This document shows, one piece after another, positions 10,347 to 37,912 of a stretch of DNA of 64,000 bases (within the stretch, counting starts at the first letter, position 1; each line of letters opens with the position of its first letter). The notes under the pieces were generated by a model, which was given only the letters and a program-made list of their open reading frames with translations, ran no database searches and had not been told where the DNA came from. This stretch comes from Clostridia bacterium (lineage in GTDB: Bacteria; Bacillota; Clostridia; Oscillospirales; Acutalibacteraceae). The stretch covers positions 1-64,000 of the forward strand of contig JAFZUV010000011.1 in assembly GCA_017618135.1 (NCBI GenBank), in the 5' to 3' direction. Both the position numbers and the translations under genes were made by a program.

Positions 10347-12467
10347 TTGAAGAGATTGGTGTCGGTAATAGCCGTAATAGCCATTGTGTTTGCTCTTTGT
10401 TTTTCTGTATCGGCAAGTGAGCCTACAAGTTCGTTTGTCCACGAGGAAACGGCAAACGGAACTGTAACGGCTCAGCTGTCTCGGGAAATGTATAGCGCTG
10501 TGCGCGTTATAACGGCAAATTCTTTGGGCCTTGAAAAATCACTTACGGGGCTTAGTGATTTGTGTTGTGATGAAGACGGTCTTACATATTTACTTTGTTC
10601 TGATCGTTCAATCATAGTTGTACTGAACAAGGATTATACTTTGAACAAGACTTTTTCTGTTGTAGACGAAGGCGGAAATGCGGTTTATTTTGAGGGAGCT
10701 CAGGGAATTTATGTTGACCAAGGAAAGTTGTATATATGCGATACCCGTCAAGCAAGGATACTTGTCTGTGATTTGGACGGTAAACTGCTTGAAACGCTGA
10801 ATAAGCCCGAGTCAAGCTTAATTCCGGAAGAGTTCTATTATCAACCGTGCAAGATAACAAAGAATAACAGAGGCTACACATATATTCTCAGTCTTGGTTG
10901 TTATTATGGCGCGTTGGCGTATTCACCGGAGGGTGAATTCTTAGGATTTTACGGCGCTAACACTGTTAAAGCGTCTGCACTTGATACTATTTCATATCTT
11001 TGGGACAGACTTACACAGACGGACGCTAAAAAATCACTTACAGTAAAAAAGTTACCGTACTCGTTCGTTGATTTGTGTCTTGACAGCAAGGGTTATATGA
11101 TAACCTGTACGGGTTCTGTTGATGACGATACCAACGGTACCGGTCAGCTCAGAAAGCTATCCCCGGGCGGAGACGATATACTTTACAAAACGAGCTTTGA
11201 CGGTTCTTCAGTTTCAGCTTCGAGCTATAATTTTGTCGAAGAAAAAATTATTAAGAGGTTTGGTGTTAACAAACCGCAGAATGTTATAGCGGTTGATGTT
11301 GACGAGGACGGATTTATATACGCTCTTGATTCACGACATGCGCTTATTTATGTCTACGACGATGAATGCAATATGATTTGCGGATTTGGCGGTGGCGAGG
11401 ATTATCTTCAAAGGCTTGGCGGATTTGATAGTGTTACTTCGCTTAAAGTTAACGGTACCGATGTCCTTGTAACCGATTATGATAATTTTGCACTTACAGT
11501 TTTTGAGCGTACGGATTACGGTAATCTTATAACTAAAGCACAGAGCCTTTACCTGAAGGGCGAATATGATGAAGCGGCGCCTTTATGGGAACAGGTTTTA
11601 GCTCTTAATTCAAACAGCCAGCTTGCCTATCGCGGTCTTGCGATGGCGAGTATAAACAATAAAGAGTATACAAAGGCTTTAAAGTATGCAAAAGCAGGAC
11701 TTGATTATTCAGTTTATGACATGGCTTGGAAGGTTGTTCGTAACAAGTATATCTCTGACAATTTTGTTTGGTTGTTCGGACTTATTGTATTAGTTGTCGG
11801 CGGACTGATTGTATTGTCGGTTTATGCTAAACGCAAGGGTTTTGTATTGCTAAAAAGCGAAAAAGTAAAAATTGCTCTTTCAACTCCGGTTCATCCGTTT
11901 AACGCTTTTGATGATATACGGTATAAAAATAAAGGTTCTATACTTGTCGCTTGTGTTATAGTATTTTTATACTATCTCGGCAAGGTATTTGAGGCTACCG
12001 GATCCGGATTTCTTTTCACAAGAAGCGATCCAACCACATATAATACCGTTTATACAATAATAGGTACCATCGGATTAGTTGTTTTGTGGTCGGTATGCAA
12101 CTGGCTTATATGCAGTTTGTTCTCCGGCAAAGGCAAGCTTTCGGATGTGTTTATAGTCACAGCTTATTCACTTATTCCGTTGACCGTTTATACTTATGTG
12201 AGAGTTATACTGTCGCATGTTTTGTCGATATCCGGTTTATCTATTATGGACGGTATATATACAGTTGTGTTGCTGTTCACATTCTTCATACTCAGTATTG
12301 CCATTATGACAGCTCATGAATATGACTTCTTTAAATTCCTATCCACATCCATTGTGACTGTACTGTTTATGATATTAGTTGTGTTTGTTATATTCCTCGT
12401 AGGGGTACTGCTTCAGCAGGTTGGCGAGTTTATATTATCTTTGTTACAGGAAATCTTCTACAGGTAG
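10347..12467 (+). CDS. NHL-repeat / TPR / Yip1-domain membrane protein
   Basis: The start is TTG, because an in-frame TAA lies immediately before it (10344-10346) and an AGGG lies 12 nt upstream. The 706-aa product has a signal peptide ending near VSASEP. A beta-propeller made of NHL-like repeats follows (about residues 55-390, for example YVDQGKLYICDTRQARILV and VDEDGFIYALDS). A TPR pair comes next (about 395-455, AQSLYLKGEYDEAAPLWEQV), then one transmembrane helix near 470-490 and a five-helix Yip1-like domain (about 525-700). Proteins of this kind commonly sit beside sugar ABC transporter and DUF5696 genes in Clostridia, but their job is not established. An extracytoplasmic sensor or scaffold for the importer is a reasonable inference. 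Confidence 0.8.
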   Translation: MKRLVSVIAVIAIVFALCFSVSASEPTSSFVHEETANGTVTAQLSREMYSAVRVITANSLGLEKSLTGLSDLCCDEDGLTYLLCSDRSIIVVLNKDYTLNKTFSVVDEGGNAVYFEGAQGIYVDQGKLYICDTRQARILVCDLDGKLLETLNKPESSLIPEEFYYQPCKITKNNRGYTYILSLGCYYGALAYSPEGEFLGFYGANTVKASALDTISYLWDRLTQTDAKKSLTVKKLPYSFVDLCLDSKGYMITCTGSVDDDTNGTGQLRKLSPGGDDILYKTSFDGSSVSASSYNFVEEKIIKRFGVNKPQNVIAVDVDEDGFIYALDSRHALIYVYDDECNMICGFGGGEDYLQRLGGFDSVTSLKVNGTDVLVTDYDNFALTVFERTDYGNLITKAQSLYLKGEYDEAAPLWEQVLALNSNSQLAYRGLAMASINNKEYTKALKYAKAGLDYSVYDMAWKVVRNKYISDNFVWLFGLIVLVVGGLIVLSVYAKRKGFVLLKSEKVKIALSTPVHPFNAFDDIRYKNKGSILVACVIVFLYYLGKVFEATGSGFLFTRSDPTTYNTVYTIIGTIGLVVLWSVCNWLICSLFSGKGKLSDVFIVTAYSLIPLTVYTYVRVILSHVLSISGLSIMDGIYTVVLLFTFFILSIAIMTAHEYDFFKFLSTSIVTVLFMILVVFVIFLVGVLLQQVGEFILSLLQEIFYR

Positions 12468-20477: not shown

Positions 20478-21389
20478 ATGAAAAGATTAGTGGGTGTATC
20501 AACGGGCTCTCTTCAGATAAAATATGGTGATAGACGCACACTTGAAATTTTAAGTGAAATAGGTGCTGATTCGGCGGATTTTTCACTTGAATTTGATACT
20601 AATGATTATAGAAATACCGATTGCGTTTATGCAAAAGGCGATGAGGCGATAAGAGAGTATTATTCCGAGCTTAAAGAGTATGCAGACAGTCTGGGTATTA
20701 TAATCGGTCAGACTCACGGTAAGCTTCCGGGATTTAGAAATATAAAATCCGAAGATGACGCGTTAGTGGAAAACACGAGGCTTGATTGTATAGCTACAGC
20801 GGCACTCGGCGCGCCGGTTTGCGTAATACATAACGCGACTTCTATATTTTTAGGCCCTGATCCGGACCCTGAGCTCATGCATAAGCTCAGTTTAGATATG
20901 TTTTCCCGTATACTTCCTTATGCCAAAGAAAACGGAATAAAAATTGCTACCGAAACATTCGGGGATGCGGTAAGATATTCAGCGTGTGACTTTTTCGGCA
21001 ATATTGATGAATTCCAAAAGGCATACGCTAATATTAAGGCGATTGACGAGCTTAAAGATTTTATTACTGTATGTGTGGATACCGGACATTCAAATAAGGC
21101 TATGAGATATAACAATCCCAAGCCTGCTGATGTAATACGCCGTATGGGTAAAGAGGTTACGGTGTTGCATCTTAATGATAATGATACCTTTAAGGACCAG
21201 CATAAGATACCCATGACGGGAACTATTGATTGGAAAGATGTATTTGACGCACTCGATGAAATAGGTTATAGCGGCATTTATAATATGGAATTGGAGCTTT
21301 GCCATTTTGGAAAAGATTTCCAAATTGAAACCGCCGAATTCGCGGTTAAGTTAATGAAATACATTTTAAAGGAAAGGTACGGCAATTAA
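20478..21389 (+). CDS. Sugar phosphate isomerase/epimerase-like TIM barrel protein
   Basis: This 303-aa cytosolic protein belongs to the xylose-isomerase-like/AP-endonuclease-2 superfamily. The barrel signature includes IIGQTHGKLPG near residue 75, IATETFG near 155, CVDTGHSNKA near 198 and VLHLNDND near 233, providing the Glu, His and Asp metal ligands usual in the fold. The C-terminal GIYNMELEL carries a further conserved Glu. It is the first gene of the operon after a strong promoter and precedes GH3 and GH36 glycosidases, so isomerisation or epimerisation of a released sugar is likely. The exact substrate cannot be read from the sequence. Confidence 0.85.
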   Translation: MKRLVGVSTGSLQIKYGDRRTLEILSEIGADSADFSLEFDTNDYRNTDCVYAKGDEAIREYYSELKEYADSLGIIIGQTHGKLPGFRNIKSEDDALVENTRLDCIATAALGAPVCVIHNATSIFLGPDPDPELMHKLSLDMFSRILPYAKENGIKIATETFGDAVRYSACDFFGNIDEFQKAYANIKAIDELKDFITVCVDTGHSNKAMRYNNPKPADVIRRMGKEVTVLHLNDNDTFKDQHKIPMTGTIDWKDVFDALDEIGYSGIYNMELELCHFGKDFQIETAEFAVKLMKYILKERYGN

Positions 21390-21410
21390 GGCTGTAAATA
21401 GTGGTGTAGT

Positions 21411-23558
21411 ATGCCGGATAAAATTAAAAGCAGGGTTGATACCCTAATATCAAATATGTCGCTTCGCGCAAAAATCGGGCAGTTAAATCAACCCGAAACA
21501 CCTACTGAGAATAATATTGAGGAGTTTAAAGAAGCAGTAAGACGCGGTGAAGTGGGTTCAATACTTATGTCAGTCGGCGCGACGGCAGGCAATGATGCAC
21601 AAGGGGAAATTAATGTTGATTTCTACAATGAGCTTCAAAAAATTGCTGTGGAGGAAAGTCCTGACGGAATACCGATCCTTTTTGGTCGAGATGTTATTCA
21701 CGGTCATAGGACGGTTTTTCCTATACCGCTTGCAATGGCGGCATCATTCAATCCCGAGCTTATAAAAAAGTGCTATCGTGACACTGCAATCGAAGCTACA
21801 AACGACGGTGTACATTGGACATTTACGCCTATGCTTGATTTGTGCCGTGACCCCCGTTGGGGTAGAATTATCGAGGGAACGGGGGAGGACCCGTATATAG
21901 GCGCCCGCATAGCCGAGGCGGTAGTAGCCGGACTTCAAGGCGATGATGTTTCAAATAAGGATAGTATGCTGGCTTGTGCCAAACACTTTATCGGATACGG
22001 AGCAAGCGAGGGCGGCAGAGATTATCATCGTACCGAAATATCGGATTATAGTCTTTACAATTATTATCTTCCGGCATTTCGTGCCGCAATAAAGTCCGGA
22101 GCTATGACAGTGATGTCATCGTTTAACGATATAAGCGGTCAGCCTATTACTTCAAGCCGTAAATATCTTACCGATATTCTAAGGAATAATCTCGGTTTTG
22201 ACGGTTTTGTGGTTTCCGATTATGACGCCGTTATTCAGCTTATAAAGCAGGGCGTTGCAGAAAATTCGGAAGAATGTGCTTCTATGGCTTTAAATGCCGG
22301 CCTTGATATGGATATGCACGATGGATGTTATATGGATAATCTCGAAAAAGCCGTAAATAGCGGTGCTGTCAGTGTGGATGTAATTGATGAAGCGGTAAGG
22401 CGTATACTGACGGTAAAAATGAAGGCGGGATTATTCGAACATCCTTATACAAAAAAAATAAAACTCAATCGTACCGAACATTTAAAAGATGCTCGTGAAA
22501 TGGCTGGAGAATCAATCGTCCTACTTAAAAATAATGATGTTTTACCTATAAATAAATCTGCAAAGGTGGGTCTTATAGGGCCTTTCTCGCACGAACGCAG
22601 AAGTCTGCTCGGTAGTTGGACTATTGACGGCAAGGCTGACGAAACGCCTACTTTAGCTGAGCGAATGCGGGAGGTGATAGGCGGCAACCTTAATTGCATA
22701 AGTTCAAGTACTCTCGGGTGGAACAGTGTTAATAAGAACATCGCGGCGGCGGATGTGGTTGTACTTGCTCTCGGTGAAAGCTGGAGTGCTACCGGTGAAT
22801 CGCGAGCGGTTTCTGATATCACAATTTCAAGTGAGCAGAAAGAGCTTATTAAAAAAGCAAAAACCTATGGTAAAAAGACTGTGGGAGTGCTTTTCTGCGG
22901 CAGACCGATTGCTATCGAAGAAATCGCAGAAGACCTTGATGCAGTACTATATGCTTGGCATACCGGAAGCGAGGCGGCAGGGGCCGTAAGTGATATACTG
23001 TTTGGCGATGTGCAGCCCTGTGGCAGATTACCGGTAACTCTTCCGCGAAAGGCTACGCATATTCCGCTTTATTACAATGTTACCTCAAGTGGCAGACCGG
23101 TCAACTGTTATTATGGCGAAAATCCGGGCAACTGCTATATTGACAGTATGCCAACTCCCTATTATCCTTTCGGTTACGGTCTTACATATACAACTTTTAA
23201 GTATTCCGATATTAAAACTGATATCAGTAAGATTGCTGTTTCGGAACTTAAGGCGGGCAAAAAGCTGAGAGTTTCGGTTAATGTTACAAATAAAGGCACT
23301 GTATCCGGAAAAGAAACAGTACAGCTTTATATTCGGGATGTTTGCGCAAGTATTATGCGACCTATAAGAGAACTTAAAGCATTTAAGAAAATCAGAATAG
23401 CACCCGGCAAGGCGGAAAATGTCACATTTGATATCGGATATGAGGAATTGGGCTTTTTCGATGATAAGGGTAACTATATTGTGGAAAATGGTAAAGTTGA
23501 GTTATACATCGGTGAAAACTGTCTTACCGGGAAGAAAACATCAATAGAAATTGTTTAG
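21411..23558 (+). CDS. Glycoside hydrolase family 3 beta-glucosidase-type enzyme
   Basis: This 715-aa protein has no signal peptide, so it acts in the cytosol on imported oligosaccharide. The N-terminal barrel holds KHFIGYG and the nucleophile region GFVVSDYDAV, with the predicted catalytic Asp270. The alpha/beta sandwich follows (VLLKNNDVLPI, VLFCGRPIAIEE). A fibronectin-III-like domain at about 610-715 completes the usual three-domain GH3 layout. It would remove beta-linked glucose or a related sugar from non-reducing ends; xylosidase activity is possible. It lies 21 bases after the isomerase/epimerase and 17 bases before the GH36 gene, within one operon. Confidence 0.93.
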   Translation: MPDKIKSRVDTLISNMSLRAKIGQLNQPETPTENNIEEFKEAVRRGEVGSILMSVGATAGNDAQGEINVDFYNELQKIAVEESPDGIPILFGRDVIHGHRTVFPIPLAMAASFNPELIKKCYRDTAIEATNDGVHWTFTPMLDLCRDPRWGRIIEGTGEDPYIGARIAEAVVAGLQGDDVSNKDSMLACAKHFIGYGASEGGRDYHRTEISDYSLYNYYLPAFRAAIKSGAMTVMSSFNDISGQPITSSRKYLTDILRNNLGFDGFVVSDYDAVIQLIKQGVAENSEECASMALNAGLDMDMHDGCYMDNLEKAVNSGAVSVDVIDEAVRRILTVKMKAGLFEHPYTKKIKLNRTEHLKDAREMAGESIVLLKNNDVLPINKSAKVGLIGPFSHERRSLLGSWTIDGKADETPTLAERMREVIGGNLNCISSSTLGWNSVNKNIAAADVVVLALGESWSATGESRAVSDITISSEQKELIKKAKTYGKKTVGVLFCGRPIAIEEIAEDLDAVLYAWHTGSEAAGAVSDILFGDVQPCGRLPVTLPRKATHIPLYYNVTSSGRPVNCYYGENPGNCYIDSMPTPYYPFGYGLTYTTFKYSDIKTDISKIAVSELKAGKKLRVSVNVTNKGTVSGKETVQLYIRDVCASIMRPIRELKAFKKIRIAPGKAENVTFDIGYEELGFFDDKGNYIVENGKVELYIGENCLTGKKTSIEIV

Positions 23559-23575
23559 CTTTGTGAGGATATACT

Positions 23576-25756
23576 ATGATTGCTTTTAAAAACAGTATTT
23601 TTCATCTTTCAACAGATAATACGAGTTATTTAATAGGAATTTTTGGCGGGCAACTCATAAATCTTTATTACGGAAAACGATTAAATTCTGTTCCGGAAAT
23701 AAGTGACATATTGCCTATTGATTATTCTCGTATTTTTTCTCCGAATGATATTAATATAGATGGAAAAAAATGTTCTACGGATAATCTTACCATGGAATAT
23801 CCTACTTTCGGCAGTGCTGATTTGCGTACACCTGCTTTCTCAGCTACATATACTGACGGTACTGCCGTTACTCGCTTTGAGTATGAGGACTATGAAATAC
23901 ATAAAGGCAAATATGATATACCCGGTCTGCCTTCGGTTTATGCTGAGGACGGGGACAGGGTATCGTCCCTTTGTATAACTATGAGCGATAAGGTCAAGGG
24001 CGTTGAGGCAAAGCTTAACTATGCTGTTTTTGAAGAATATGATGCTATAACCAGAAGCGTGGAAATAATCAATTCCAGCAATAGCGTAATGGACATTGAT
24101 AAGGCATTGAGCTTAAGCATTGATTTCCGCTGTGCTGATTTTGATATGATAACGCTCAATGGTGCCTGGGCGCGTGAGCGATTGCCTGAAAGGTCGCCGC
24201 TGTCGTACGGCACAAAACAGGTCGAGAGTATGCGCGGAATAACATCGCATCACGAAAACCCGTTTTTTGCATTGGTAGATAAAAATACCGATGAATTTGT
24301 CGGTGAGGCTTATGGATTCAATCTTATTTATTCGGGTAATTTTGTGGCAGGCGCGCAAAGAGATGCGTATAATGTGACTCGCGCATTTATGGGTATTAAC
24401 CCTCAGAATTTTAAATGGCGACTTGAGGGCGGCGAGCATTTTAATACCCCCGAAGTGGTATTGGTATATTCGGATTGCGGTATAGGGAAGATGTCAAGAA
24501 CATTTCATAAGCTGTACCGCGAGCGTTTATGCAGCGGTAAGTTCAGGGATATAAGGCGTCCGGTGCTCATAAACAACTGGGAAGCCACTTATTTTGATTT
24601 TAACGAAGAAAAGATATTGGAGATTGCTAGGACCGCCAAAAGCTTAGGCGTTGAGCTTATGGTGCTTGATGACGGGTGGTTCGGCACCCGTAATGGCGAG
24701 TCCGGCTCTCTTGGTGACTGGGTACCGAATACGCAAAAGCTTCCAAACGGAATTACTGGTTTGGCAAAAAAAGTTAGGGCGCTCGATATGAGCTTTGGAC
24801 TTTGGGTCGAGCCTGAAATGGTATCACCTGACAGCGACCTCAACCGCGCACATCCTGATTGGTGTTTGCATATTGAGGGGCGAGAGCCTACGCTTGGCAG
24901 AAATCAATTGGTTTTAGATCTTACAAGAAACGAAGTCGTAGATTATATAAAGTCGGTATTTGACCGCTTGTTATCCGGTGGTGACATTTCGTATGTTAAG
25001 TGGGATATGAACCGCAGTATGACCGAGGTAGGTTCGGCGGTTGGCGGGCCTCAAGCACAGGGCAAGGTTTATCACAGATATATTTTGGGACTTTATGAGA
25101 TTATGAATTATGTAACAGAAAAATACCCTGATGTTTTGTTTGAGGGATGCTCGGGCGGCGGCGCCAGATTTGACGGCGGAATTCTTCACTATTTTCCTCA
25201 GATTTGGACAAGTGATGATACTGACGCGCTTGAAAGACTGTATATACAGTACGGTACCAGCATTTGCTACCCTTATTCCGCTATGGGTGCGCATGTTTCG
25301 GCTGTGCCTAATCATCAGGTTTACAGAACTACACCGATGAAAATGCGTGGGGATGTGTCAATTTGCGGTCAACTTGGTTATGAGCTTGACCTTAATAAGT
25401 TGGATGACCAGGATAAAGAGTGCGTAAGAAAACAAATAGAAGATTATAAGGCTTTAAGCGATGTTTTTCACACGGGCGATTTGTATAGATTGATGGTGCC
25501 GGTAGGAAACAACGCTGCAATCAATGAGTTTATATCTGAGGACAAAAATACGGTTATTGTTTGCAGTTACATAATGAAGGGTATACCTAATGCTCCCCGT
25601 GACTATGTTAAACTTCGCGCACTTGATAAAAAAGCTAAGTATAAAGACCAAAACGGCAAAGTATATACCGGTGAACAGCTGATGAGCTTCGGAATAAAGG
25701 TTGATTATACTGCCGATTATCGCAGCAATATAACGGTGTATAATAAAGTTAACTGA
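23576..25756 (+). CDS. Alpha-galactosidase, glycoside hydrolase family 36
   Basis: This 726-aa cytosolic enzyme has the normal length for bacterial GH36 tetrameric alpha-galactosidases. An N-terminal beta-supersandwich leads into the barrel with VLDDGWFGTRN, LWVEPEMVSPDSDLN and YVKWDMNRSM, where Asp477 is the predicted nucleophile. GCSGGGARFD and WTSDDTDALER follow, the latter carrying the predicted acid/base Asp. It would hydrolyse terminal alpha-galactose from raffinose-type or galactomannan-derived oligosaccharides. Pairing with a GH3 enzyme suggests that the imported glycan carries both alpha-Gal and beta-linked residues. Confidence 0.95.
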   Translation: MIAFKNSIFHLSTDNTSYLIGIFGGQLINLYYGKRLNSVPEISDILPIDYSRIFSPNDINIDGKKCSTDNLTMEYPTFGSADLRTPAFSATYTDGTAVTRFEYEDYEIHKGKYDIPGLPSVYAEDGDRVSSLCITMSDKVKGVEAKLNYAVFEEYDAITRSVEIINSSNSVMDIDKALSLSIDFRCADFDMITLNGAWARERLPERSPLSYGTKQVESMRGITSHHENPFFALVDKNTDEFVGEAYGFNLIYSGNFVAGAQRDAYNVTRAFMGINPQNFKWRLEGGEHFNTPEVVLVYSDCGIGKMSRTFHKLYRERLCSGKFRDIRRPVLINNWEATYFDFNEEKILEIARTAKSLGVELMVLDDGWFGTRNGESGSLGDWVPNTQKLPNGITGLAKKVRALDMSFGLWVEPEMVSPDSDLNRAHPDWCLHIEGREPTLGRNQLVLDLTRNEVVDYIKSVFDRLLSGGDISYVKWDMNRSMTEVGSAVGGPQAQGKVYHRYILGLYEIMNYVTEKYPDVLFEGCSGGGARFDGGILHYFPQIWTSDDTDALERLYIQYGTSICYPYSAMGAHVSAVPNHQVYRTTPMKMRGDVSICGQLGYELDLNKLDDQDKECVRKQIEDYKALSDVFHTGDLYRLMVPVGNNAAINEFISEDKNTVIVCSYIMKGIPNAPRDYVKLRALDKKAKYKDQNGKVYTGEQLMSFGIKVDYTADYRSNITVYNKVN

Positions 25757-27070: not shown

Positions 27071-27164
27071 GGAGTAGTACTCAAGTTGGTGACGAGGCGC
27101 CCCTGCTAAGGGCGTAGGTCGGCTAATCCCCGGCGCGAGAGTTCGAGTCTCTCCTACTCCGCCA
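27071..27164 (+). tRNA. tRNA-Ser (anticodon GCU)
   Basis: The acceptor stem pairs GGAGTAG (27071-27077) with CTACTCC (27154-27160), then G and an encoded CCA. The anticodon stem CGCCC/GGGCG encloses the loop CTGCTAA, giving GCT at 27105-27107. The long variable arm is that of a serine tRNA reading AGC/AGU. It is probably co-transcribed with the tRNA 45 bases upstream. Confidence 0.96.
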
Positions 27165-27204
27165 AATATTAAAAGCATCCTCTTTAAGGATGCTTTTAAT
27201 ATTT
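27164..27204 (+). terminator. Terminator of the tRNA pair
   Basis: A 17-bp perfect stem (27164-27180 with 27188-27204) starts on the last base of the tRNA CCA end, and its right arm is T-rich (CTTTTAATATTT). Confidence 0.85.
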
Positions 27205-27311: not shown

Positions 27312-27387
27312 ACTTTGGGTGTTATAATTTGAAAATGAAATAAACACACGAGGCGTTCTGTATATTAAGCATTGATTTTGTTGTGTT

Positions 27388-27419
27388 TTTAACTTCATTT
27401 AAGGTACAGGATTTATAAT
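27388..27419 (+). promoter_or_regulatory. Predicted response-regulator box and promoter 1
   Basis: Direct repeats TTTAA (27388-27392) and TTTAAG (27398-27403) lie 10 bp apart. The second ends 10 bp before a perfect TATAAT (27414-27419). The repeats occupy the -35 position, the arrangement used by PhoB/OmpR-type activators. The same architecture occurs at 29436 and 31378. Confidence 0.6.
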
Positions 27420-27441
27420 TGAAGCTAAAGGAGGCGGAAAT

Positions 27442-28119
27442 ATGCGCATACTGCTTGCGGAGGATGAAAAGGCTCTTTCCAAGGCTATTATAAAGATATT
27501 TGAAAAAAACAACTATTCGGCAGACGCCGCGTATGATGGAGAAGAAGCACTGATGTATTTAGAATCTGGTTGCTATGATGCGGCAGTGCTTGATATTATG
27601 ATGCCTAAAATGGACGGTATAGCCGTTCTTAAAAAGTTAAGAGCAACCGGCAATCAGATTCCGGTTTTAATGCTTACGGCAAAATCGGATATTGAGGACA
27701 GGGTTTTGGGACTTGACAGCGGCGCGAACGATTATCTGCCAAAGCCTTTTGATACCAGAGAACTTTTGGCGCGCATACGAAGTATAACCCGCATTAAAAC
27801 AGAAGCGGATACAAAACTTACAATAGGCAATATTACTCTTGATCGTGCTACCTTCGAGTTGTCTTCTCCTGCCGGAAGCTTTCGCCTTGCAAATAAGGAA
27901 TATCAAATAATGGAATACTTTATGCAAAATCCGCACAGAGTTATTTCAACCGATATGCTTATGGAAAAAATATGGGGATGGGATAATGAAGCTGAAATCA
28001 ATGTAGTGTGGGTGTATATTTCGTATCTTCGCAAAAAACTTACCGCACTCGGCGCTGATATCAGTATCAAGTCATCACGAAACGCAGGGTATTTTTTGGA
28101 GGACGGCAATGATAAATAA
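27442..28119 (+). CDS. Response regulator, OmpR/PhoB family
   Basis: This 225-aa protein has an N-terminal receiver domain (acidic pocket E7/D8, phospho-acceptor Asp51 in VLDIMMPKMDG, conserved Lys in PKPFD). A C-terminal winged-helix DNA-binding domain ends with NVVWVYISYLRKKL. A strong AAAGGAGG site precedes the ATG. The gene overlaps the kinase gene by 11 bases, so they are coupled. It probably binds the tandem TTTAAG boxes found upstream of itself, of the 29501-31304 genes and of the ABC transporter genes. Confidence 0.95.
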   Translation: MRILLAEDEKALSKAIIKIFEKNNYSADAAYDGEEALMYLESGCYDAAVLDIMMPKMDGIAVLKKLRATGNQIPVLMLTAKSDIEDRVLGLDSGANDYLPKPFDTRELLARIRSITRIKTEADTKLTIGNITLDRATFELSSPAGSFRLANKEYQIMEYFMQNPHRVISTDMLMEKIWGWDNEAEINVVWVYISYLRKKLTALGADISIKSSRNAGYFLEDGNDK

Positions 28120-29350
28120 ACTAAAACGAAGATTTTTGATAATCGGCACTGTTTTTATGTTTATATTGATGTCTGTATTGGTGCTCATTATGAACACCGT
28201 GAACTTCCACGAAGTAACTGTTGACGCCGACTCTGTTTTAGATGTTCTTTCGCAACCGGATACACATTTTTTTGAGGACAGGCAGGAAAGGGAAAAACCG
28301 GACGGAATTGATGGTTTTGTTCCTCGCGGAATGTCGCCGGAAGTCCCTTACGAATCAAGATTTTTTATTGTTAGGATATCTGAGGATGGAGAAATACTAC
28401 AGTCCGACCTTTCAAGAATAATCTCCGTGGATGATGAATCGGTAAAAAATTATATAGACGAAGCACTACAAAGTAATAAAACGCGCGGTTTTATAGATAA
28501 CTTTCGCTATTTAAAAACAATGGATGAAAATGAAACGAAAATTTTGTTTCTTGATTGCGGAAGAAAAATTGATTCGTTTAAAAGTTTTATGACGATTAGT
28601 ATAATAGTAGGTCTTGCGGGATGCATTATAATCTTTATTGCGTTTGTTTTTACCGCCGGTAAAATAGTGGCTCCTATCGCCGAAAGCTATGAAAAACAAA
28701 AGCGCTTCATTTCAGACGCCGGGCACGAGATAAAAACACCGCTTACAATTATAAATGCCAATGTTGATTTATTGGAATCCGACGGAGAAAAGGAAGAGCT
28801 TACCGATATTCGCCAGCAGACAAAGCGACTTACAGAACTTACGAACAATCTCGTTTTGCTTTCTAAAATGGAAGAGGCGGATCATAAGCTTACAAAAATA
28901 GACTTTCCGCTTTCGGACCTTGTCAGAGAAACCGCGGGAACATTTAGTGCTCTTATTGCTTCAAACAGCATTGATTTCAGCGTGATTGTTACACCGGATA
29001 TTACTTTAAGCGGTTCACCTGATGCGGTTCGGCAGTTATTGTCGGTCTTACTTGAAAACGCCGTAAAATATTCGCCTACGGGTGGCTCAATCGCTCTTAA
29101 GCTTATAAAACATAGAAAATCAGCAATTCTTACGGTAAATAACACCACTAAGGAAATGATAAAAGATTATGATTTGAATAATATCTTCGACAGATTTTAC
29201 CGCTCGGACTCTTCAAGAAATTCCGAAACCGGAGGTCATGGTATAGGACTTTCTATCGCAAAAGCTATCGTAGAGGCGCACGGCGGCACGATTTCAGCTT
29301 CAACTAAAACGGGTTTTGAATTTTTAATAACAGTTACATTACCAATATAG
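28109..29350 (+). CDS. Sensor histidine kinase with extracytoplasmic sensing domain
   Basis: This 413-aa protein has a first membrane helix at about residues 10-31, an extracellular segment of about 130 residues and a second helix at about 160-184. The phosphorylation site is His206 in SDAGHEIKTPLT. The ATP-binding domain has LLENAVKYSP (N box) and GGHGIGLSIAKAIVEAHGG (G box). No HAMP domain is evident; the second helix runs almost directly into the H-box helix. The sensing segment contains a Pro/Gly-rich stretch (IDGFVPRGMSPEVPYE) that recalls stretches in the two proteins encoded downstream, hinting that they may touch (inference). Confidence 0.95.
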   Translation: MINKLKRRFLIIGTVFMFILMSVLVLIMNTVNFHEVTVDADSVLDVLSQPDTHFFEDRQEREKPDGIDGFVPRGMSPEVPYESRFFIVRISEDGEILQSDLSRIISVDDESVKNYIDEALQSNKTRGFIDNFRYLKTMDENETKILFLDCGRKIDSFKSFMTISIIVGLAGCIIIFIAFVFTAGKIVAPIAESYEKQKRFISDAGHEIKTPLTIINANVDLLESDGEKEELTDIRQQTKRLTELTNNLVLLSKMEEADHKLTKIDFPLSDLVRETAGTFSALIASNSIDFSVIVTPDITLSGSPDAVRQLLSVLLENAVKYSPTGGSIALKLIKHRKSAILTVNNTTKEMIKDYDLNNIFDRFYRSDSSRNSETGGHGIGLSIAKAIVEAHGGTISASTKTGFEFLITVTLPI

Positions 29351-29363
29351 CTTTTAATGCGGG

Positions 29364-29395
29364 AAGAGGGTGCAAGGACACCCTCTTATTTTTTT
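29364..29395 (+). terminator. Terminator after the histidine kinase
   Basis: AAGAGGGTG and CACCCTCTT form a 9-bp stem with a 6-nt loop, followed by A and seven Ts. Confidence 0.93.
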
Positions 29396-29435
29396 GAAAA
29401 TATCCAAATAAAAAATCAAAAGTTTTTTTGCACAG

Positions 29436-29468
29436 TTTAAAGTACATTTAAGAATAGTCTATTATAAT
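29436..29468 (+). promoter_or_regulatory. Predicted response-regulator box and promoter 2
   Basis: TTTAA (29436-29440) and TTTAAG (29447-29452) are 11 bp apart and followed after 10 bp by TATAAT (29463-29468). No -35 hexamer is seen, so activation by the adjacent regulator is likely. It drives the small-protein/beta-helix operon. Confidence 0.65.
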
Positions 29469-29500
29469 TCGTATAGAAACTTGAGAAAGGAGTTACAGAG

Positions 29501-29521
29501 ATGAAATATATAAGACTTTAG
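29501..29521 (+). CDS. Six-codon leader micro-ORF (MKYIRL)
   Basis: ATG to TAG spans only seven codons including the stop. It is preceded at 8 nt by a full AAAGGAG (29486-29492) and lies just after the -10 element of promoter 2. The strong RBS argues that ribosomes load here. It may be a translated leader that controls the downstream genes, or a degraded gene start. An 8-bp inverted repeat follows (29530-29564). Confidence 0.4.
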   Translation: MKYIRL

Positions 29522-29529
29522 AATTGGGC

Positions 29530-29564
29530 TTATAAAGGGTAAGCATACAATAAATACTTTATAA
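29530..29564 (+). repeat. AT-rich inverted repeat in the leader of the beta-helix operon
   Basis: TTATAAAG (29530-29537) and CTTTATAA (29557-29564) can pair around a 19-nt loop, between the micro-ORF and the RBS of the next gene. The stem is weak. Confidence 0.35.
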
Positions 29565-29591
29565 AACATTTTTAAAAAGGAGATTTATGCT

Positions 29592-29942
29592 ATGTTAGTT
29601 AACATCACAAAAAAAGTAGTCATTGTTTTTATTATAGGAGTGCTTATAGGTGCAATTATTGCAACAACAGGATTTTTGATTTTTGCAAAAACATCAAGGT
29701 CAACATCTAATGGTATGATGCCGCCTTCATTCAGTCAATCCGAAAATTCCGGTTTGCCGGGTGAAAACGGCGGAAACAGTCAAAACAATTTTGGTAACAA
29801 TAATCAGCCGCCTCAGATGCCGGGAGCCGGCAACTCGGCAAACGGAGAAAACAGCCAAGCTTTTCAGCAGCCTGAAATGTCAAATGGAAATAATCAGGGT
29901 AGTGTGCCGCAGCTTCCCGGGAACAGCAATTCTTCAAACTAA
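29592..29942 (+). CDS. Small membrane protein with Asn/Gly/Pro/Gln-rich outer tail
   Basis: The ATG at 29592 lies 9 nt after AAAAAGGAG. The 116-aa product has one membrane helix (about residues 8-31) and an extracytoplasmic tail of about 80 residues that is almost only Asn, Gly, Ser, Pro, Gln and Met (for example SNGMMPPSF, GNNNQPPQMPGAGN). Such a tail should be disordered. No family was recognised. It stands 18 bases before the beta-helix gene, in an operon apparently activated by the neighbouring two-component system. A role as a wall spacer, an adaptor or a partner of the transporter's outer loops is conjecture. Confidence 0.7.
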   Translation: MLVNITKKVVIVFIIGVLIGAIIATTGFLIFAKTSRSTSNGMMPPSFSQSENSGLPGENGGNSQNNFGNNNQPPQMPGAGNSANGENSQAFQQPEMSNGNNQGSVPQLPGNSNSSN

Positions 29943-29960
29943 AATAAAGGAGGCGGTCTT

Positions 29961-31304
29961 ATGACAAAAAGAATGCCGATAATAAGTGTTGCGGTCATTC
30001 TTGTTTTATGTATAATTCTTGGAGGTCTTGTGCTTATCACCGTAAAGCAAATAAGCGCGGGCGACAATGAAACACAGTCAGAAAACGGTTTTAATTCGGA
30101 GGCAAGCGGCAATACAAGTTATTCCGCCGCAACCGAAATAAAAGAATCGACAGAATTTAGTGATAAAACCTACACTTCCGAAACAGCGGAAGAAAATGCC
30201 CTTTCAGTGAGCGGAGATGTGGTGGTTACGGCAACAGGTATAACAGTAAATAAAACCGGCGATTCGGACTCAGGAGATAACACAAGCTTTTACGGAACTA
30301 ACTCTGCGGTAATAGCAAAGGATGGTGCAACGCTTAATATAAAAGGCGCAAAAATTACCACCGACGCGTCAGGTGCAAACGGTGTGTTCTCGTACGGCGG
30401 CACAGCAACAACACAGAATGCGTCCGGTGACGGAACAACCGTTAATATAAGCGATTCAACTATTATTACAAAACAGGATAATTCAGGCGGAATTATGACT
30501 ACCGGCGGAGGAGTAATGAACGCTGAAAATTTAACGGTTGAAACCGCCGGTAGGTCGAGCGCCGCAATCAGAAGTGACAGAGGAGGCGGAACTGTTACAG
30601 TAAATAAGGGAACCTACAAAACAACAGGCATAGGTTCGCCGAGCATATACTCGACCGCTGATATTACCGTTAAAAATGCTGAACTGATTTCCACCACTTC
30701 TGAAGGTGCAATTGTGGAGGGCAAAAACAGTATTACCCTTGAAAACTGCACATTAGAGGACAATAATACAGAGCTTAACGGGCAATCTACCACATATAAA
30801 AATATTTTTCTTTATCAGTCAATGTCGGGTGACGCCGATACGGGAAATGCCGTATTTACCGCAAAGGATTGTATTATTACTACGAAAAACGGCGACACTA
30901 TCTATGTTACCAATACTTCCGCCGTCATCACGCTCGAAAATAATACATTTACAAGCACGGATAATAACGGATACTTTTTGAGAATACAGAAAGACTCATG
31001 GGGAAATAACGGCTCTAACGGCGGAAATGTGACTCTTAATATGAAAAATCAAAAGGTCGCCGGAGATATTTATGTGGATAGTATATCTACTCTTACGATG
31101 ACGCTTGATAATAACAGTTGTTTTGAGGGCGTTATAAATAAGGATAATATTACATCATCTGTAAAGCTTACAATTGATAAAACATCAAAAATAAAACTTA
31201 CCGGAAATATTTATTTAAGCTCTTTTGAAAACGGGGATTCGACAAACTCAAACATCGATTTTAACGGTTATAAGATTTATGTTGACGGCAAGGAATTATC
31301 ATAA
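29961..31304 (+). CDS. Membrane-anchored right-handed beta-helix surface protein
   Basis: This 447-aa protein has an N-terminal membrane helix (about residues 6-29) with no obvious cleavage site and a short Ser/Asn-rich linker. Residues ~70-440 form a long series of short beta-strand repeats (AVIAKDGATLNIKGAKIT, TTVNISDSTIIT, AVITLENNTFTS, TLTMTLDNNSCFEG). These are typical of a parallel beta-helix with Asn/Thr ladders, as in adhesin-like or carbohydrate-binding proteins such as the Cthe_2159 type. No catalytic motif was seen. It is inferred to be an exposed binding or structural protein whose expression, and perhaps placement, depends on the flanking two-component system and ABC transporter. 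Confidence 0.75.
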   Translation: MTKRMPIISVAVILVLCIILGGLVLITVKQISAGDNETQSENGFNSEASGNTSYSAATEIKESTEFSDKTYTSETAEENALSVSGDVVVTATGITVNKTGDSDSGDNTSFYGTNSAVIAKDGATLNIKGAKITTDASGANGVFSYGGTATTQNASGDGTTVNISDSTIITKQDNSGGIMTTGGGVMNAENLTVETAGRSSAAIRSDRGGGTVTVNKGTYKTTGIGSPSIYSTADITVKNAELISTTSEGAIVEGKNSITLENCTLEDNNTELNGQSTTYKNIFLYQSMSGDADTGNAVFTAKDCIITTKNGDTIYVTNTSAVITLENNTFTSTDNNGYFLRIQKDSWGNNGSNGGNVTLNMKNQKVAGDIYVDSISTLTMTLDNNSCFEGVINKDNITSSVKLTIDKTSKIKLTGNIYLSSFENGDSTNSNIDFNGYKIYVDGKELS

Positions 31305-31317
31305 TATCCTATACAGA

Positions 31318-31362
31318 ATTACACCAAAGTCTTCCGATCATTTCGGCAGATTTTGGTGTAAT
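31318..31362 (+). terminator. Long hairpin after the beta-helix gene
   Basis: ATTACACCAAA (31318-31328) pairs with TTTGGTGTAAT (31352-31362), and a further partial stem lies inside. Only a weak AT stretch follows, so termination may be partial, allowing some read-through into the transporter genes. Confidence 0.6.
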
Positions 31363-31377
31363 ATAAATATCTGAATT

Positions 31378-31409
31378 TTTAAGTATATTTTAAGTTAAGG
31401 TAATATATT
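31378..31409 (+). promoter_or_regulatory. Predicted response-regulator box and promoter 3
   Basis: TTTAAG (31378-31383) and TTTAAG (31389-31394) are 11 bp apart, with an extra TTAAGG directly after (31395-31400). A TATATT -10 element (31404-31409) follows 9 bp after the second box. It precedes the ABC permease gene by 32 bases. Confidence 0.6.
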
Positions 31410-31441: not shown

Positions 31442-33076
31442 ATGTATGTCATCAAAAATGCTTTTCGGTGTATTTCGCGTGCAAAAGGGCGAAATGTTTT
31501 AATAGGCCTTGTTGTCCTTTTGCTTTCTGTTTCTTCCTGCATAGGGCTTTCAATTAAAGAAGCAAATAGAACGCTTAAAAAGCAGTATGCCGACGATATG
31601 GAGATAACAGCTACCGTTAATCCCAAAGATATGAGAAAAAACAGAAATATTTCTCTCGATAAATTAACGGAATTATCAAATAGTGAGTTCGTTAAGGAGT
31701 TTAATTATTCATCATCGGTATATTTTGCGGCAGGTGACGGAATAGAGCCGCTTGATGTAGCCGGTTCATTTAAACAGAACAAGGATTTTAAGGATAAATA
31801 CGGCGATGTTAAAAATGGCGAGACCAGAACCACAACCGAAACCCAAACCGAAAGCAGTGAATCTTCAACCGGTAGTGAGAACTCGGAGTTTCCGGAAAAA
31901 CCGGAGGGCGGATTTCCGACCGGTGGGGGACAATCAGGTAATAAAACATTTATCACTAATAACAACTTTTTCTTTAATATGGCGTCAATGAACGATTTTA
32001 CGGTAACGGCATATAATTCCGATACCTCGCTACCGGAGTATATTTCGTCACTTGGCGTAATAACATCAAGTGACGAAAACCTAAACTGTGTAATTTCAAA
32101 AAGTCTTGCTGAAGAAAATGAATTGGAAATAGGCAGCACATTTACGCTTAAAAACCCCGATAATGAAGAAGAGGTTTATGCATTTACGGTTGCAGGCGTT
32201 TTTGATTCATCCGAAACAGATGAATCTCAGGACACTTCTTCCAACGCTTCTTTTACCGATAACTATATTTATATAAGCAGTGCTGCTATGGAAAAAATAC
32301 TGTTGAGTTCCGCTGAAACCAACCCTGAAACAACAGAAGACAGCGAAGAAACTGCAAAGGCACTAACTGCAAATTATAAAGGCACATTTATATTTGCCAA
32401 TCTGGATAATTATAATAAGTTCAGCGAATCTTTAGGCGATGATTACACACTTGTTTCAAGCGATGTATCAAACTATGAGCAAAGTATCTCGCAACTCGAA
32501 ACGCTTGGGAAATATGCAACATATTTCTTAATAGTCATATTTATAATAGGCGCATTTGTGCTTATCATTATAAACCTGTTCAGTATTCGCAACAGGAAAT
32601 ATGAAATAGGAGTTCTTACGGCAATAGGAATGAAAAAATGGAAGGTTGCCACACAATTTGTTATAGAACTTTTTGTTGTTACATTTGCGGCATTAATTAT
32701 CGGAAGCACAATAGGCAGTGTCGCCAGTGTTCCTGTGACAAACAGTTTACTTGTTACAATAAACTCTGAAGAAAAAACCGAATCGGAAACTTCAAAGCAA
32801 CCCGGCGATTTTCCTGCGACAGACGGGAACATATCCGGTGATGTTTCGGGGAAGATGACCCCTCCCGGGGGCTTTGGCGGCGACTTCAAGCAAATGATTG
32901 GAGATTTCGAAGGAAATGTTAATAACTATATTATCAGTATTTCTTCTGCAACGGATATGACTGTAATACTTCAAATGATTTTGGTAGGTATGGGTTTAAC
33001 ACTTGTTTCTTCTGCGGCTGCAGTTACATTTGTTATGAGATATGAACCGCTTAAGATACTAAATAACAGAGATTAA
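31442..33076 (+). CDS. MacB/FtsX-type ABC transporter permease
   Basis: This 544-aa protein has the MacB layout: a first helix at about residues 18-38, a large extracytoplasmic domain (about 40-360), then three helices (about 362-385, 408-433, 510-532) of the FtsX domain. The outer domain carries unusual low-complexity Pro/Gly stretches (FPEKPEGGFPTGGGQSG near residue 150 and MTPPGGFGGDFKQM near 480, the latter between the third and fourth helices). It pairs with the ATPase 13 bases downstream. MacB/LolCDE-like systems move or release lipoproteins, peptides or toxins by mechanotransmission. Here the neighbouring surface proteins are plausible clients. Confidence 0.9.
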   Translation: MYVIKNAFRCISRAKGRNVLIGLVVLLLSVSSCIGLSIKEANRTLKKQYADDMEITATVNPKDMRKNRNISLDKLTELSNSEFVKEFNYSSSVYFAAGDGIEPLDVAGSFKQNKDFKDKYGDVKNGETRTTTETQTESSESSTGSENSEFPEKPEGGFPTGGGQSGNKTFITNNNFFFNMASMNDFTVTAYNSDTSLPEYISSLGVITSSDENLNCVISKSLAEENELEIGSTFTLKNPDNEEEVYAFTVAGVFDSSETDESQDTSSNASFTDNYIYISSAAMEKILLSSAETNPETTEDSEETAKALTANYKGTFIFANLDNYNKFSESLGDDYTLVSSDVSNYEQSISQLETLGKYATYFLIVIFIIGAFVLIIINLFSIRNRKYEIGVLTAIGMKKWKVATQFVIELFVVTFAALIIGSTIGSVASVPVTNSLLVTINSEEKTESETSKQPGDFPATDGNISGDVSGKMTPPGGFGGDFKQMIGDFEGNVNNYIISISSATDMTVILQMILVGMGLTLVSSAAAVTFVMRYEPLKILNNRD

Positions 33077-33089
33077 GGAGGAATGCAAA

Positions 33090-33743
33090 ATGTCTGAATA
33101 TGTTTTAGAACTTAAAGACCTTTGTTACAGTTATGTTAAGGGTGGAAAGAATATTATAGACGGGCTTAATTTAACCTTTGAAAAAGGAAAAATATATGCG
33201 ATAGTCGGAAAATCAGGGGCAGGGAAAACAACACTGTTGTCTCTTCTGTCCGGTCTTGCTAAACCGACTTCGGGTGAAATATTGTTTAATGGTAGTGATA
33301 TTGCTAAAATTAACAAATACAATTACCGAAGCAAACTTGTCGGGGTTGTTTTTCAAAGCTTTAATCTTTTGCCGTATCTAAGCGCGACTGAAAATGTTAT
33401 GCTTTCAATGGATATTTCGGGTAAAAAAATCAAAAATAAAAAAGAACTTGCTAAAAAACTTTTAGAAAAAGTCAATCTTGAAGAAGAGGATCTAAACAGA
33501 GGAATACTAAAATTATCAGGAGGACAGCAACAGCGGGTAGCAATAGCAAGGGCGTTATCATACGAGCCGGATATCATCTTCGCTGACGAACCAACAGGAA
33601 ATCTTGATATTGACACACAGAATGATATTATGAAAATACTAAGAACTCTTGCAAATGAGGGTAAGTGTATTATAATTGTCACACATTCGCCTGATGTATC
33701 AAAGCTGTCTGATGTAATATACGAACTAAAAACAATCAAGTAA
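33090..33743 (+). CDS. ABC transporter ATP-binding protein, MacB/LolD type
   Basis: This 217-aa ATPase has Walker A GKSGAGKTT (about residues 39-47), a Q-loop in VFQSFNLLPYL, signature LSGGQQQRVAIARA, Walker B IIFADEPTG and switch His in VTHSPD. The NLLPYLSATENVML segment is typical of the LolD/MacB branch that serves FtsX-like permeases. It starts 13 bases after the permease behind a GGAGG site and forms the cytosolic motor of that transporter. It closes the two-component/beta-helix module. Confidence 0.95.
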   Translation: MSEYVLELKDLCYSYVKGGKNIIDGLNLTFEKGKIYAIVGKSGAGKTTLLSLLSGLAKPTSGEILFNGSDIAKINKYNYRSKLVGVVFQSFNLLPYLSATENVMLSMDISGKKIKNKKELAKKLLEKVNLEEEDLNRGILKLSGGQQQRVAIARALSYEPDIIFADEPTGNLDIDTQNDIMKILRTLANEGKCIIIVTHSPDVSKLSDVIYELKTIK

Positions 33744-37219: not shown

Positions 37220-37327
37220 TTTTAGTTTTTGCGCAACCTTCACTCATATTCTTGGAAAAATGTTTTAAATATATTCATTTAAAATAAAAAAATATAAAAA
37301 GCAGAAACGAGGGTGGTTCGCTTTATA

Positions 37328-37912
37328 ATGAAGGCGGTCTGTACGCGCTGCGGAACAGAATACGGCGAGGTTGATTTGCGCAATCACGACGGTGAAACCA
37401 AAATAATAAACGCCGTCGCGGCGACCTGTGTTGAGAATGGTTATTCGGGTGATATATATTGCCTTAGCTGCAACAGTTTAGTTTCGTCGGGCAGTGAAAC
37501 CCCGCTTGCGGAGCACACTGTGGGCGACTGGCTTTCAGACGCTGACGGGCACTGGCATCACTGCTCTGTTTGTGATAGTGATGTTGACCGCGGGGAGCAT
37601 AGGTTTATCTGGAGGGTAACAAAGAAAGCTACTTCCGCCGAGAACGGATTAAAAGAAGAGCTTTGTTCTGTGTGCGGCTACAAATCAGGCAAATCCGAGA
37701 CAATAGAATATGCGGGATACGAGCCGGACGACATAAACAACGACGGTGTGGTCAATAATCAGGATATTGCGCGGCTTTTCCAGTATTTATCCGGTTGGGG
37801 TGTACCCGTAAACAACAGGGCTATTGATGTTAACAAAGACGGAAATGTTAATAATCAGGATCTTGTTTTCCTTTTTCAAGCACTGTCCGGATGGGAAGTT
37901 GACTTAGTTTAG
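37328..37912 (+). CDS. Dockerin type I protein without signal peptide, possibly truncated
   Basis: The ATG at 37328 is taken as the start; a GTG at 37313 is the other choice, and neither has a well-placed RBS. The product is about 194 aa. The first ~130 residues are Cys/His-rich with CTRCG, CLSC, CSVC and CSVCG pairs like those that separate modules in surface proteins. The end is a type I dockerin with two calcium loops, DINNDGVVNNQD and DVNKDGNVNNQD, each followed by the LFQ helix. Dockerins bind cohesins in cellulosomes, yet no signal peptide is present. The gene may therefore be the 3' remnant of a larger secreted protein. A cohesin protein is encoded about 1 kb downstream. Confidence 0.7.
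   Translation: MKAVCTRCGTEYGEVDLRNHDGETKIINAVAATCVENGYSGDIYCLSCNSLVSSGSETPLAEHTVGDWLSDADGHWHHCSVCDSDVDRGEHRFIWRVTKKATSAENGLKEELCSVCGYKSGKSETIEYAGYEPDDINNDGVVNNQDIARLFQYLSGWGVPVNNRAIDVNKDGNVNNQDLVFLFQALSGWEVDLV

Follow-up and report, generated by a model that had tools for sequence, protein, structure and literature searches.

Introduction

PhoB and PhoP are OmpR-type regulators that act on tandem 11-bp repeats, which replace the -35 element of the promoter and whose half-site differs from TTTAAG. In the streptococcal CiaRH system the site of the response regulator CiaR is NTTAAG-N5-TTTAAG, searched for together with a -10 element ten bases further on; the final G of both halves is important, and CiaRH is stated to be apparently not found outside the streptococci (PMC3091779). 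A Bacillus regulator, BAS0540, which is the closest homolog of CiaR in that organism, is reported to bind TTTAAG-N5-TTTAAG at sites that include its own promoter (PMC4938410). The genes for polyphosphate polymerase and DUF4956 are reported to be contiguous in streptococci and clostridia, near the pel loci of Gram-positive bacteria (PMC7112168). Here we analyse a stretch of 64,000 nucleotides from a member of the Clostridia (GenBank assembly GCA_017618135.1, contig JAFZUV010000011.1, positions 1 to 64,000), referred to in its entirety as the window. It contains an OmpR-type response regulator and its kinase, a small-protein/beta-helix operon and an ABC transporter, with a tandem TTTAAG-type box before each of these three units. 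On the basis of the letters alone, the original prediction had proposed that the three promoters form a self-regulated regulon of the local regulator.

For this locus the evidence best supports a two-component system of the CiaR type that activates itself and has three promoters detectable in the genome, with the activator standing in for the -35 element. The two proteins are likely to switch on three units jointly: their own genes, the operon for a cell-surface protein, and a membrane transporter. The architecture, TTTAAG-N5-TTTAAG-N10-TATAAT, corresponds to the CiaR box published for streptococci (PMC3091779), which BAS0540 of Bacillus binds as well (PMC4938410). The mode of binding is already known; new in this study are the wider range, which takes in gut Clostridia and Bacilli, and the content of the regulon. 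Within the library searched, we found no literature on a response regulator with TTTAAG in Clostridium, and none linking polyphosphate polymerase, a response regulator and a carbohydrate-binding domain protein; among the literature matches listed, as judged by title and the start of the abstract, none describes this system.

Three promoters with the architecture of the CiaR box

The tandem repeats and -10 elements proposed at 27388, 29436 and 31378 are present with the sequences and coordinates claimed, all on the forward strand. Site 1 (27387-27419), before the response regulator gene, reads TTTAAC-TTCA-TTTAAG-N10-TATAAT from 27388 to 27419, with the second half at 27398-27403 and TATAAT at 27414-27419; read from 27387 it becomes TTTTAA-CTTCA-TTTAAG-N10-TATAAT, and an 11-bp register is then common to sites 1-3. 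Site 2 (29436-29468; TTTAAA-GTACA-TTTAAG-N10-TATAAT) precedes the small-protein/beta-helix operon, and site 3 (31378-31409; TTTAAG-TATAT-TTTAAG-N9-TATATT) precedes the ABC permease. The second half is TTTAAG in all three cases, at distances of 10, 10 and 9 bp from the -10 element, and to this extent the proposed shared tandem TTTAAG box holds; two perfect copies occur in site 3 only, sites 1 and 2 being without the G in the first half, so that the heading of the original prediction was slightly too tidy. The claim that no -35 hexamer stands at the right distance is borne out, since with spacers of 16-18 bp the best matches to TTGACA are 2/6, 3/6 and 2/6 at sites 1, 2 and 3 (a spacer of 19 bp gives 4/6 at site 1). 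All three sites have the layout of a CiaR-box promoter, with some 10 bp between the second repeat and the -10 element and no -35 element, and they are very probably binding sites of the regulator at 27442-28119, which would belong to an OmpR-type group reading the CiaR box.

Frequency in the window and in the genome

The pair TTTAA-N5/6-TTTAA occurs three times in the window (2.59 expected), nowhere in the 64 kb but at these three sites: the bare pair is not over-represented, and its count is at chance level. The full pattern TTTAA-N5/6-TTTAAG-N9/10-TATAWT, which was fitted to the three window sites, has three matches in the 1.63-Mb genome, all of them within the module and with the same strand orientation. 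Read backwards as a control, the full pattern gave 0 and 0 matches across the genome, and it had no match in 12 genomes of equal size simulated from the dinucleotide content of the window. Thus, the complete motif does not occur at the random frequency that would have counted against a regulon: no further copy was found in the rest of the genome. The case is carried by the architecture as a whole, by where it stands and by its conservation, and not by the bare repeat count.

Conservation of the box in related loci

Two sets of related loci were analysed. For the first, an alignment-based scan with the beta-helix protein yielded 408 relatives; the best 80 of them were taken as loci, mostly from gut and rumen metagenome-assembled genomes (MAGs). 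Upstream of the beta-helix gene or its small-protein partner the box scores at least 14 in 49 of the 80 loci and at least 15 in 37, while the reversed control for the same upstream regions gives 5 and 0, respectively. Regulator-like genes of these loci have a box scoring at least 14 in 6 cases out of 20 (reversed control 0), a count that, like the spacing test below, includes several genes other than OmpR-type regulators, as the 20 regions were collected with a lax BLAST cut-off. For the permease homologs the figure is 5 of 6, again with 0 in the reversed control. In the locus L096 the box lies 159 bp before the small-protein start, versus 156 bp in the window.

The strongest single result is the spacing preference in the 106 regions that precede the beta-helix, regulator and permease genes. 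Across all repeat spacings of 0-12 and all -10 distances of 4-16, the combination (5,10) was found in 51, 43 and 23 of the 106 regions at thresholds of 14, 15 and 16; the corresponding means for the other 168 combinations are 3.17, 0.97 and 0.21, and the highest values are 27, 11 and 5.

The half-site varies among these relatives, and in several of them the change is shared by two or three promoters. TTTCAG is the first half before three genes (beta-helix, regulator and permease) in L062, and L068, L072, L074 and L080 have TTTAAT with TTTAAC or TTTAAT before the beta-helix and permease genes. TTTCAG halves are also seen in L059, L063 and L073, whose recognition helix ends in SRIRKLL or SRLRKLL. 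As a separate observation, two CiaR-type boxes stand in tandem before the small-protein/beta-helix genes of L062 (9375-9545), and the short stretch between them ends in a hairpin and a T-run, looking like a short transcript of the cia-dependent small RNA (csRNA) type. Some titles of loci in this set (for example, Candidatus Saccharibacteria, Methanobrevibacter, Treponema and Planctomycetales) may come from mislabelled or contaminated bins.

The second set was centred on the regulator and drawn from the family to which the window's genome belongs. Relatives at E 1e-55 were present in 94 of the 250 genomes searched, and the 30 best matches, the window's own included, were taken as loci (identity 58-100%). 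In the 250 bp before the regulator (only 126 bp were offered by L188) a box was found in 15, 13 and 6 of the 30 orthologs at scores of 13.5, 14 and 15, with 0/30 in the reversed control. The conservation expected of a genuine regulon exists, with the (5,10) spacing strongly preferred, in part of the orthologous loci only. In L155 and L157, whose regulators are 71-72% identical to that of the window, the order is regulator, kinase, box, permease and ATPase, with no beta-helix genes between. An operon of VTC, DUF4956 and Cthe_2159 genes adjoins the regulator in L157 (7943-11168) and in other relatives; VTC operons near the regulator were found in L157, L208, L209, L211, L214, L217 and L223, and 5 of these 7 VTC starts have a box at 14 or higher (reversed control 0), or 6 of 7 at 13.5 (control 2). 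A homolog of this operon, VTC included, was not found in the window's genome. Family permeases have a box of at least 14 before 5 of 15 starts, and in L207 (regulator 83% identical) the box after the kinase precedes an HtrA-type protease with Trypsin_2 and PDZ domains (10636-12027). The survey of box positions by locus, L207 included, started at a score of 14.5.

Genes of other kinds in the same loci are almost devoid of boxes. None was found before 21 kinase starts, before one ATPase or before one glycosyltransferase, and the intergenic starts of other genes have a box in 1 of 180 cases at 14 or above and in 4 of 180 at 13.5; the HtrA-type gene of L207 falls outside this control, because a longer antisense frame was taken instead. 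The single start at 14 or above belongs to a gene encoding a cyclophilin-type isomerase domain directly 3' of the kinase in L208 (4931-6481). When only intergenic starts are counted, the fractions are 8/15 for regulators, 5/6 for VTC genes, 5/14 for permeases and 0/9 for kinases. When spacing was tested again, in another set of 51 regions, the maxima were at (5,10) and (4,10); the combinations (5,9) and (6,9), whose register overlaps with these, had lower counts. Finally, the perfect pattern with TATAAT has four matches across 200 family genomes (backward control 1) and none in the window's genome; two of the four precede an OmpR-type regulator, one a beta-helix homolog and one another secreted-type protein.

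The regulator and its recognition helix

The regulator (225 amino acids (aa), 27442-28119, forward strand) consists of a receiver (PF00072, Response_reg, 3.4e-32) and a winged-helix domain (PF00486, Trans_reg_C, 1.8e-20), the domain composition of the OmpR/PhoB family. Trans_reg_C has five matches in the genome, three of which are OmpR-type regulators by their full sequence. The recognition helix of the local regulator, VVWVYISYLRKKL, is identical to that of CiaR, VVEVYVSKVRKKL, at 9 of 13 positions, versus 6 and 4 of 13 for the helices of the two other OmpR-type regulators, TVDVHVKRLREKL and IVDVNIHRLRTKI, and 3 of 13 for OmpR of E. coli. Compared with the CiaR helix pattern VVEVY[VI]SK[VI]RKKL, the local helix has three features outside the streptococcal variation: W for E, Y for K, and L at a V/I position. 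Exactly the same helix is present in 19 of the 30 regulator orthologs, and the other 11 differ from it at one position. Identification of the local regulator as PhoB was rejected: the NCBIfam PhoB equivalog is its second-best match, with 176.6 bits versus a cut-off of 296.2.

Genes of the module

All genes of the module are on the forward strand. The regulator is followed by a sensor histidine kinase (413 aa, 28109-29350; Pfam HisKA and HATPase_c), 3' of which a terminator-like hairpin at 29364-29387 was recognized by consensus scan only; with this hairpin behind the kinase, the small-protein and beta-helix genes probably need a promoter of their own. Two tRNA genes lie 5' of the regulator, with another terminator-like hairpin after them (27164-27204). 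Given the two hairpins, the regulator-kinase pair and the following operon look like separate transcription units.

The leader of this operon contains a putative coding micro-open reading frame (micro-ORF; MKYIRL, 29501-29521) with a Shine-Dalgarno sequence. Such a micro-ORF was found before the small-protein gene in five of the eight leaders inspected: besides that of the window they are MFC (L096), MLFTYI from a GTG (L079), MIFSRYIQ (L066) and MNK (L062). There is none in L056, L070 and L073, and where it is present its sequence is not conserved. No small RNA was seen by eye under the three boxes of the window, and Rfam at the gathering threshold gave two tRNAs only.

The small membrane protein (116 aa, 29592-29942) has one hydrophobic N-terminal segment and then a tail rich in Gln, Asn, Pro and Gly, and matches nothing in Pfam or NCBIfam at 0.001. 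Its relatives, found at E 1e-6 in 22 of the 80 loci of the first set, share a conserved hydrophobic segment and have tails often rich in PPEMP-like repeats; 22 of 23 frames adjoin a beta-helix gene, the remaining one being the first of two in L073. Pro/Gly-rich stretches like those of the tails are also seen in the permease of the window.

The beta-helix protein (447 aa, 29961-31304) is of surface type, with an N-terminal helix. It has no significant Pfam match. Membership in the Cthe_2159 family by Pfam PF14262 was considered and rejected, as there is no match at E values up to 10, a search in which HMMER filters may hide weak ones; the homolog in L031 matches PF14262 at 1.2e-10. The predicted fold has a mean predicted local distance difference test score (pLDDT) of 90.2 and, in structure comparison, matches other beta-helices; among the matches listed (50 of 502 chains aligned) there are other beta-helices and not the solved Cthe_2159 structure. 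The module ends with an FtsX/MacB-type ABC permease (544 aa, 31442-33076; Pfam FtsX and MacB_PCD) and the ABC ATPase that partners it (217 aa, 33090-33743; Pfam ABC_tran).

Elsewhere in the window, an ORF at 37313-37912 carries dockerin-like repeats at its end, and genes in 20478-25756, before a metallophosphoesterase, resemble glycoside hydrolases, both by eye. With these features the genome may be that of a plant-fibre degrader.

Points against and alternative explanations

Several observations weigh against a regulon read by the local regulator, or against its generality. The score is tuned to this architecture, a bias answered in part by the reversed, spacing and other-gene controls, and many loci are interrelated, so that the counts are not independent; in particular, four of the five boxed permeases of the first set are from similar MAGs. 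Below a score of 14 are 31 of the 80 beta-helix genes and also 10 of the 15 family permeases, in the latter case at a level where the reversed control has 1 as well; 15 of the 30 regulator orthologs are below 13.5; and the Cthe_2159 genes, scored alone, have no box (0/3). Orthologous promoters without a good match may have a drifted half-site, or else control may not be universal. Covariation of motif and helix is partial, because L060, with a helix similar to those of L059, L063 and L073, has TTTAAG; in addition, the helix of L068, L072, L074 and L080 shares 6 of 13 positions with CiaR, no more than that of another regulator of the window's genome. At site 2 a promoter scan gives a marginal sigma-70 alternative, TTTAAA-18-TATTAT, with 9/12 matches. 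The looser pattern TTAA-N6/7-TTAAG-N9/10-TANNNT finds the same three sites only, with three matches in its backward control and an average of 5.3 in the simulations: its number is unremarkable, and what is unusual is the clustering of all three in one 4-kb stretch before three genes.

Among the alternatives, the one that survives best, and which we consider improbable, is that the regulator binds the boxes and represses these promoters. There is a precedent in Streptococcus suis, where CiaR is reported to repress satAB from a site overlapping the -10 element (PMC9241815). The boxes of the window end 9-10 bp before the -10 element, with no good -35, which is the geometry of CiaR-activated promoters.

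Slightly less probable still is a phosphate regulon of the PhoB/PhoP type with a diverged Pho box, of the same geometry and with phosphate or polyphosphate state as the cue. Pho boxes, too, take the place of the -35 element, the regulator has PhoB as its second-best NCBIfam match (176.6 bits), and the regulons of relatives include an operon with a VTC-domain polyphosphate polymerase. However, that score is far under the cut-off of 296.2, half-site and helix match CiaR, and an HtrA-type protease is boxed in one relative.

It is very unlikely that the boxes are real and read by another regulator of the genome rather than by the adjacent one. Two further OmpR-type regulators are available for this role, and tandem 11-bp repeats are widely used in the OmpR/PhoB family; their helices, TVDVHVKRLREKL and IVDVNIHRLRTKI, are further from CiaR, in half of the orthologs the box stands before the gene of the adjacent regulator itself, and box and regulator gene occur together in loci without beta-helix genes (L155 and L157).

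Least credible of all, and largely refuted by the conservation tests, is chance resemblance of AT-rich intergenic sequence before ordinary sigma-70 promoters: the chance-level frequency of TTTAA-N5/6-TTTAA, the loose pattern, no commoner than its backward control, and the 9/12 reading of site 2 are in its favor, against 3 versus 0 matches to the full pattern, the (5,10) peak over 168 other combinations (with the second set of 51 regions peaking at (5,10) and (4,10)), and only 1 boxed start in 180.

Mode of action and relation to known systems

The prediction of a self-regulated regulon of the local regulator is supported by the genome-wide rarity and the conservation of the complete motif. Its reading as tandem repeats bound by an activator is likewise probable; it left unrecognized that the box is the known CiaR box, and unseen the VTC/DUF4956/Cthe_2159 targets of relatives and, in one genome, the HtrA-type target. 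Concerning binding, activation rather than repression, the cue and the physiological role, we infer the following sequence of events. The kinase would sense a cell-envelope cue and then phosphorylate the regulator, which would bind as a dimer, arranged head to tail, on two TTTAAG half-sites separated by one helical turn. In this position it would occupy the place of the -35 element and recruit RNA polymerase to the -10 element located 9-10 bp downstream. Three units would thereby be switched on: regulator and kinase (self-activation), the small membrane protein together with the surface-type beta-helix protein, and the ABC transporter of FtsX type. The nature of the targets (beta-helix protein and FtsX-type transporter here; Cthe_2159, polyphosphate polymerase and HtrA-type protease in relatives) points to upkeep of the cell envelope or of surface polymers as the likely function.

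These results define the DNA code of a sensor-regulator pair that occurs in many Clostridia and Bacilli of gut and rumen. They also predict as targets several proteins whose role is unknown: the beta-helix protein, the small Pro/Gly-rich membrane protein, the FtsX-type permease, VTC and DUF4956. With three detectable promoters in a 1.6-Mb genome, the regulon is small enough for complete testing. If the link to CiaR is true, the streptococcal system would be one branch of a wider family, and the targets of small systems would hint at the family's original purpose. We propose, tentatively and at somewhat less than even chances, that CiaR-type signalling is an old, Bacillota-wide circuit of envelope control, the core of which in gut Clostridia and Bacilli would be the self-activating pair with a surface beta-helix protein of the carbohydrate-binding kind and the FtsX-type transporter, often with VTC/DUF4956; that the HtrA link and the csRNA-like transcripts of streptococci are derived or partly shared; and that the half-site drifts with the helix.

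Among the known systems, the Pho box regulators PhoB and PhoP differ in that the local regulator scores below the PhoB cut-off. The VTC/CotH/DUF4956 cluster beside Gram-positive pel loci (PMC7112168) resembles the adjoining and mostly boxed VTC/DUF4956/Cthe_2159 operon of the regulator's relatives; the window's own genome yielded no VTC homolog. BAS0540-BAS0541, the CiaRH homolog of Bacillus, has in common with the present system TTTAAG-N5-TTTAAG boxes that include its own promoter; it has a predicted regulon of 23 genes, with other targets, versus three detectable promoters here. The streptococcal CiaRH regulon is different in that no small RNA was seen under the three boxes of the window, the likeness being judged by helix and box. 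It shares with the present system a tandem box about 10 bp before the -10 element, a CiaR-like recognition helix and, in one close relative (L207), an HtrA-type protease under the box, whereas the targets predicted here are the system's own genes, a surface-type beta-helix protein and an ABC transporter of FtsX type.

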